Positions 255 through 1,710 of a DNA stretch of 46,583 bases are shown in pieces. How positions within the stretch are numbered: the first letter of the stretch is position 1; the number at the start of each line of letters is the position of its first letter. Below the pieces are notes generated by a model. It did no database searches. It was not told the DNA's origin and saw nothing but the letters and a program-made list of their open reading frames with translations. The DNA comes from Victivallales bacterium (GTDB lineage Bacteria > Verrucomicrobiota > Lentisphaeria > Victivallales > GWF2-38-69), in the NCBI GenBank assembly GCA_021733985.1, contig JAIPJT010000017.1, forward strand, positions 1 to 46,583, in the 5' to 3' direction. Both the position numbers and the translations under genes were made by a program.

Positions 255-1520
255 TTAGAAAACCGGAATGATTTTATCTTTTGGTGCGCCGCATACCGGA
301 CATTTCCTAGGCTTGTTTTTCATGTGGAATGTATAACCGCATGAAGAACACGTAAAATATTTCTCCTCTGGAATATCATTACCTGCTTTATAGTATGATA
401 ATGCCTTTTTTAGCAGTTTCTCATGAATTTTTTCCGCTTCTCGAGAATCAAAAAATGTATAAGCTGCAAGGCCATGGGAATTATTTTCAGCATAGTTCAG
501 ATAGTTTTTATACATTTCATTTACTTCATAATCCTCATTTCTGATACTGTCTTCCAGAAATTCTTCCATTCTTTTCAATTTGTTCATTACATAGAAATGG
601 TTCTTTGCATGGCGGTATTCGGAATCTGACAGCGCTTTAAAAAGCTTGGAAAGTCTTGGTAAATTACTGCTTTCGGAGAGCTCAGACAGTAGTTTATATC
701 TGAAATGCGCAACTGCCTCGTTTGAAAAAGCAGTTTCCAAAAAACTCAGAAGTTTACTGTCGGCAACTTCATTATCGTATTTAATGTTTTCTAGGTTTAA
801 ATATTCGTGTGTAAGTTCATTATCACTGTCAAAGTAGATTTTGACTATATGGTGCTGTACCTTATCTTTTTTCAGTACTGAATTTACATCTTCTATCCTT
901 GCACCTCCTCCGCCGGTAACAATCAAGGGAATCCCGTCTATGTTATCTTCGAAGTAGGAATGCACATGCCCTGATATAAAATATTTGATTTTGTCTTTAC
1001 AGGGAAAGTAAATATCCTTCATTTTCTGCCAGGCTTCGGCTGATACAGAATTACCTGTATAAGAGTTTGGCGGCGGTATATGGAAAACAACAATAAAGTT
1101 TTCACTTTTATTATTTTTCAGCGCTTTATTAAAAAAGTTCAATGTCTCTTCTGAAAAACTTCTCTCAGAATTATCCAGGACAATTACTGTTAGTTTCGGA
1201 TTTACTATCGCATAATTTCTCAAGCCGAAATATTCTTCATAAAATTTTGTATCATGGTTACCGCATACAGAATATACCGGAGTGCCGGCGATTTGGTTGA
1301 TAAAACATTTAACATTTCTATAGAACTGCCTTGAGCCGAAAGGAACTAAATCTCCGGCAATGACTGTTAAATCGAATTCATTGCCTATTAAAGCTTTTGC
1401 AAAAATGCTCATAGTTGCAGCACCAAGCCCGTCACAGCCGGGATCGCCGATAATATTAATTTTTTCTATATTTTCGGCTGCTATAATATTTTTGACAGGA
1501 GAAATTAATTTTTTATCCAT
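255..1520 (-). CDS. Metallophosphoesterase-rubrerythrin fusion protein
   Basis: A 421-residue two-part protein. Residues 20-230 resemble a calcineurin-like metallophosphoesterase: GD at 56-57, GNHD at 87-90, a lone His in FHIPP at 147, and GHVH at 184-187. The usual first motif (Asp-x-His) reads GDPG at 25-28, so its His is absent. Residues 250-360 look like a ferritin-like di-iron domain: E-A-V-A-H-F-R-Y, then ExxH in SEYRHA, then E..E..HE in SREAEKIHE. The last 35 residues form a rubredoxin-like knuckle with Cys 391, 394, 407 and 410. Rubrerythrins reduce peroxide in anaerobes. Phosphoesterases of this fold cleave phosphoesters, here of unknown substrate. The fusion may link oxidative-stress sensing to nucleotide or phosphoester hydrolysis (inference). 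It is transcribed alone, away from murE. Confidence 0.8.
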   Translation of the reverse strand: MDKKLISPVKNIIAAENIEKINIIGDPGCDGLGAATMSIFAKALIGNEFDLTVIAGDLVPFGSRQFYRNVKCFINQIAGTPVYSVCGNHDTKFYEEYFGLRNYAIVNPKLTVIVLDNSERSFSEETLNFFNKALKNNKSENFIVVFHIPPPNSYTGNSVSAEAWQKMKDIYFPCKDKIKYFISGHVHSYFEDNIDGIPLIVTGGGGARIEDVNSVLKKDKVQHHIVKIYFDSDNELTHEYLNLENIKYDNEVADSKLLSFLETAFSNEAVAHFRYKLLSELSESSNLPRLSKLFKALSDSEYRHAKNHFYVMNKLKRMEEFLEDSIRNEDYEVNEMYKNYLNYAENNSHGLAAYTFFDSREAEKIHEKLLKKALSYYKAGNDIPEEKYFTCSSCGYTFHMKNKPRKCPVCGAPKDKIIPVF

Positions 1521-1710
1521 TTATACTTTTGCTGTTAGGGGTTTATATTGTTATATTCAATATAATTGGAATTTCAAAAAATTAAGTATATGCCGAGTTT
1601 CAGTTATGCAGAACAAAAAAGAGAAAGCATACACTTATTAATATCTATTAAATATAATGGGTTGTTTTTTCATTTTAAAGCAATTTAAATTATTCGTTTT
1701 GGAGAAATGC

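Follow-up and report, generated by a model that had tools for sequence, protein, structure and literature searches.

A calcineurin-like metallophosphoesterase with an attached rubrerythrin in a Victivallales bacterium: a possible redox-guarded phosphoesterase

The window analysed here, a stretch of 46,583 nucleotides from a Victivallales bacterium, encodes on its reverse strand (positions 255..1520, (-)) a 421-residue protein in which a metallophosphoesterase (MPE), a rubrerythrin and a rubredoxin-like domain are joined in one open frame. We read the product, tentatively, as a cytoplasmic metallophosphoesterase with its own rubrerythrin attached, in which the rubrerythrin/rubredoxin module may protect or re-reduce the metal site of the phosphoesterase. 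Taken as a whole, this is the reading we favour, as a possibility rather than a probability. Both halves are known domains, and no description of a rubrerythrin-metallophosphoesterase fusion was found in a search of the open full-text literature.

The Pfam search returned all three domains in the order that the first-pass annotation had proposed. Metallophos (PF00149) covers residues 20-189 (E 3e-14, 54.2 bits against a cut-off of 21.5), and profile and Foldseek matches extend the MPE domain over about residues 20-242 (795..1463, (-)). The ferritin-like four-helix domain of rubrerythrin occupies about residues 255-379 (384..758, (-)), as judged from PF02915 (residues 260-373, E 8e-12), the match to Pyrococcus furiosus rubrerythrin (1nnq) and the ligand table. 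It is followed by the rubredoxin-like domain at about residues 388-418 (267..359, (-)), with cysteines C391, C394, C407 and C410 and a match to RUBY_RBDX (PF21349; residues 390-416, E 1e-8). Both C-terminal matches exceeded the curated cut-offs. An AlphaFold2 model of the whole protein, built with 31 homologues, had a mean pLDDT of 93.4 and a pTM of 0.86.

The same domain order was surveyed in 84,980 genomes, each representing a single species, and in supplementary group searches. This yielded 35 distinct full-length fused proteins from as many distinct genomes, the window's included, each encoded by one unbroken frame. As these frames come from different assemblies and phyla, we excluded an artefact in which a sequencing, assembly or frameshift error had joined two genes; nothing was found in its favour, and its probability is negligible. 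In the main alignment the relatives were 36-54% identical to the window protein. The fusion was found in Lentisphaerota/Verrucomicrobiota, Omnitrophota, Spirochaetota (Treponema, Spirochaetaceae) and Clostridia (Lachnospiraceae, Peptococcaceae and others), groups of anaerobes that agree with the setting suggested at first reading. It was present in 5 of 388 genomes of the window's own phylum, 3 of 237 in the Omnitrophota sample, 4 of 299 in the Lachnospiraceae sample and 2 of 247 in the Spirochaetota sample. The fused family is thus rare and patchy, yet conserved. One record labelled Paceibacterota (L030) grouped with Omnitrophota and may be mis-binned.

When compared with 16 stand-alone rubrerythrins, the fused rubrerythrin domains all fell on one side of a supported branch (SH-aLRT 97). 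Within a comparison limited to these 16 sequences, this placement is consistent with a fusion that arose once and was then inherited vertically, lost and probably also transferred. Neither an intact split version among the fused relatives nor a plasmid-borne copy was found.

We examined the MPE half motif by motif. Motif II (GDLV, with D57; 1344..1355, (-)), motif III (GNHD, with N88, H89 and D90; 1251..1262, (-)), motif IV (His147 in FHIPPP; 1080..1082, (-)) and motif V (GHVH, with H185 and H187; 960..971, (-)) were all recognised, and their general forms (GD, GNH[D/E], H and GHxH) were invariant in the alignment of the 35 fused proteins. Motif I (1422..1448, (-)) reads I-G-D26-P-G28-C29-D30-G within the stretch G25-D-P-G28-C29-D30-G-L-G33, so that Gly28 stands in place of the histidine of Asp-x-His. 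Every family member has glycine here, in the form GD[PS]G. The first-pass annotation had noted that GNHD and GHVH were kept while Asp-x-His was changed, and both features were seen in the window protein.

Eleven relatives from Omnitrophota (L053 and L074-L083) consist of the MPE alone, carry the same GDxGC motif and have no rubrerythrin. As the motif also occurs in these unfused proteins, it belongs to an MPE subfamily independently of rubrerythrin, and the notion that the glycine is an adaptation to the fusion was rejected. The two groups differ at residue 30, which is Asp or Glu in the fused proteins only and Thr, Ser or Arg in the MPE-only relatives. Across all 46 proteins (35 fused and 11 MPE-only), the invariant metal-capable residues are D26, C29, D57, N88, H89, Y103, H147, H185 and H187; H224 is kept in 45 of 46 relatives, and position 90 is either Asp or Glu. 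C29, Y103 and H224 lie outside the known superfamily positions, and the remaining conserved metal-capable residues occupy known ones.

Within the altered motif I loop, Cys29 and Asp26 are the sole invariant metal-capable side chains (Cys29 in 35 of 35 fused and 11 of 11 MPE-only proteins). On this pattern of conservation Cys29 is the leading candidate for the replacement metal ligand at motif I, because it is located in the altered loop itself. The invariant Tyr103 and the nearly invariant His224 could serve as alternative ligands. Tyr67 was considered as a stand-in and set aside, as this position is mostly Phe, Leu or Ile in the MPE-only relatives.

The known enzymes closest to the MPE half are the class III cyclic-nucleotide and glycerol phosphodiesterases GpdQ, Rv0805 and CpdA, in which motif I is Asp-x-His. 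GpdQ and Rv0805 were matched in profile searches, and Foldseek matched the same two enzymes together with purple acid phosphatases; NCBIfam gave weak similarity to the cAMP phosphodiesterases CpdA and SpdA. The class III enzymes share the GD, GNHD, H and GHxH motifs with the window protein; unlike it, they have no rubrerythrin, and its GDxGC motif I departs from their Asp-x-His. By analogy with the fold relatives only, the protein probably acts on a phosphodiester or a nucleotide.

A motif I that lacks histidine is nevertheless no anomaly for the superfamily. The first-pass annotation was right that the histidine is absent; its emphasis needs correcting in one respect, since GDXG is the form carried by purple acid phosphatases (PMC6515233). 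The invariant Cys29 was not mentioned in that annotation. These phosphatases also resemble the window protein in fold and in the motif set described in that study. They differ in that a tyrosine of GDxxY replaces the histidine, whereas this position is Pro60 in the window protein (His in one member) and the family has the invariant Cys29 instead. We therefore do not file the window protein among the purple acid phosphatases. A precedent for a cysteine ligand in the MPE fold is PhoD/Streptomyces phospholipase D, a superfamily enzyme in which a Cys thiolate binds Fe3+ (PMC4223295). In PhoD, however, the cysteine replaces the Asp ligand and the tyrosine is kept, while here the Asp is kept and the cysteine lies three residues on; PhoD is also extracytoplasmic and holds two Ca2+. 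If our reading is true, the metal chemistry of the MPE superfamily would extend to a new cysteine-containing motif, GDxGC.

The C-terminal half matched P. furiosus rubrerythrin both in sequence (1nnq, E 2e-35) and in structure (Foldseek TM 0.91 over the target, with 41% identity in the structural alignment). The two share the same di-iron and rubredoxin ligands; the P. furiosus protein stands alone, and here the module forms the C-terminus of a phosphoesterase. Di-iron ligands were assigned by alignment to the P. furiosus protein together with the numbering of Desulfovibrio vulgaris rubrerythrin (E20, E53, H56, E94, E97, E127 and H130). All seven are present in the window protein (E268, E301, H304, E329, E332, E363 and H366), as are the four rubredoxin cysteines, which bears out the earlier proposal of a di-iron and rubredoxin part. 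The di-iron site was intact in 26 of the 31 members of the main alignment and in three of four later members, which makes 29 of the 35 fused proteins. The fourth later member, an Omnitrophota protein (L073/L103), has one di-iron change only, H304 to Gln. All four rubredoxin cysteines were invariant across the fused family.

The main departure from this pattern is an Omnitrophota clade of five proteins (L029, L030, L032, L034 and L038) that has lost four of the seven di-iron ligands: E301 is Ala, E332 is Asp, E363 is Lys or Arg, and H366 is Tyr or Asn. These proteins retain every MPE motif and the rubredoxin cysteines. Their ferritin-like part is 33% identical to that of the main group, compared with 45% for the MPE; within the main group the corresponding values are 45% and 48%. 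The ferritin-like fold is still predicted for the degenerate clade (pLDDT 92.6; TM 0.93 to P. furiosus rubrerythrin). A second kind of loss was seen in Clostridia bacterium MS499-75, the genome of which holds an intact fused copy (L045) and a second copy (L050:1396-2203) whose intact MPE stops short of the di-iron domain; a rubredoxin remnant is present out of frame. The ligand loss in Omnitrophota and this domain deletion mean that an obligatory di-iron switch is ruled out. They also indicate that the phosphoesterase is the constant part of the family and that some lineages can do without the di-iron site.

A ferritin-like fold that outlasts its metal ligands might suggest that this part is mainly a scaffold on which the MPE dimerises or oligomerises, with redox chemistry secondary or absent. 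The degenerate clade speaks for such a scaffold, and P. furiosus rubrerythrin is a 16-mer according to the title of PDB 9qg1. However, 29 of 35 proteins retain all seven ligands, which suggests that most members are under selection to bind metal, and we consider a scaffold distinctly improbable as the main role.

The reading we favour, that of a redox-guarded phosphoesterase, would work as follows. Cys29, with Asp26, Asp57 and His187, would complete the first metal site, and the resulting MPE centre would be thiolate-ligated, probably iron-containing, and prone to inactivation by peroxide or oxygen. The attached rubrerythrin would clear peroxide, while the rubredoxin would hand electrons on, so that the MPE centre is kept in, or returned to, its reduced and active state. 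Hydrolysis would then be on in an anoxic cell and would drop once oxidant outstrips the capacity of the guard. Such a guard explains why the partner is a peroxidase instead of a ligand-binding sensor. It also explains the survival of the rubredoxin cysteines after the loss of the di-iron site, which would follow if the electron relay works for the MPE. Counting against the guard, the rubredoxin-like site could hold Zn as a structural knot, 33 fused loci showed no conserved neighbourhood, and di-iron loss in one clade implies that peroxide need not be removed in cis in every lineage. The more general proposition, that a Cys thiolate takes the place of the motif I histidine and that a joined peroxidase/rubredoxin relay sets or preserves activity according to peroxide or oxygen, strikes us as possible but doubtful. 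If the guard is real, calcineurin-like phosphoesterases would become a further case among the few enzymes that a built-in non-heme di-iron module controls or protects, and anaerobes would gain an oxidant-dependent phosphoester hydrolase.

A close rival, put forward in the first-pass annotation, is a peroxide or oxygen sensor, in which oxidation of the di-iron site or rubredoxin alters domain contacts and switches phosphodiester hydrolysis, so that an oxidant signal becomes a change in a nucleotide messenger. Neither site has lost a ligand in the window protein or, overall, in 29 of the 35 fused proteins, and the relatives of the MPE include Rv0805 and GpdQ, with the weak NCBIfam similarity to CpdA and SpdA. 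There is one functional analogue of a di-iron module joined to a nucleotide phosphodiesterase: in Bhr-HD-GYP a di-iron sensor is linked to a di-iron phosphodiesterase, which must be reduced to be active (PMC9388753). We count it as a precedent for the guard as well. Bhr-HD-GYP and Bhr-DGC, both c-di-GMP enzymes, resemble the fused protein in architecture, in that a redox module, a di-iron helical bundle, is joined to a nucleotide enzyme that depends on metal, and their activity is limited to one redox state (PMC9388753). They differ in having hemerythrin and not rubrerythrin, HD-GYP or GGDEF and not a calcineurin-like MPE, and no rubredoxin. Against a sensor, the Omnitrophota clade lost the di-iron site and kept the MPE, and signalling genes do not travel with the fused gene; we regard a sensor as somewhat unlikely.

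In addition to the fused gene, the genome of the window encodes three stand-alone rubrerythrins and a free rubredoxin. The fused module is therefore not the only peroxidase of its host. This would suit an arrangement of two uncoupled activities, in which a phosphoesterase with a house-cleaning role is tethered to an ordinary peroxidase driven by NADH, either by chance or so that the two are co-expressed, as would the shared motif of the MPE-only relatives and the unequal rates at which the halves diverge in one clade. Uncoupled activities sit less easily with a fusion that traces to one rubrerythrin clade and is retained in several phyla, never found in intact split form among the fused relatives, and we judge them unlikely.

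The guard and its rivals could be compared in a natural series, as intact, single-ligand-changed, four-ligand-lost and domain-deleted members together constitute a ready experiment on the importance of the di-iron site to the phosphoesterase. Members of the family include a cultured anaerobe, Murimonas intestini DSM 26524 (L043), and possibly a second, Clostridia bacterium MS499-75 (L045 and L050), which makes the proposal testable.

Genomic context was compared across 33 fused loci, and neither a consistent gene neighbour nor signalling genes were found near the fused gene; MPE-only genes likewise had no conserved neighbourhood. No riboswitch or other RNA family was found in the window. A perfect 7-1-7 inverted repeat, TTATATTCAATATAA, lies 30 bp upstream of the fused gene (window positions 1551-1565) and scores 12 of 14 against the PerR consensus. 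No comparable PerR/Fur-like palindrome was present in the relatives. A search of the window's genome, which is about 96% complete, detected no FUR-family protein, while 13 of 14 control genomes were positive. As the palindrome is unconserved and a FUR-family protein was not found, control by PerR/Fur was rejected and the repeat was treated as a chance occurrence.

Individual neighbours of the family are suggestive of oxidative stress, in an anecdotal and not a statistical sense. In a Lentisphaeria genome, the gene directly upstream of the fused gene, 99 bp away and on the same strand, is a flavin reductase-rubredoxin gene (L025:2144-2890), and its product is a plausible electron feeder. For three of the 11 MPE-only relatives, the adjacent gene encodes a ferritin, a VIT1 transporter or a fused MsrAB. 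As a separate observation, the fused gene of Lentisphaerae GWF2_44_16 has 148 bp upstream, on the opposite strand, another gene (L022:4318-5853) that matches a metallophosphoesterase and, weakly, a PHP domain.
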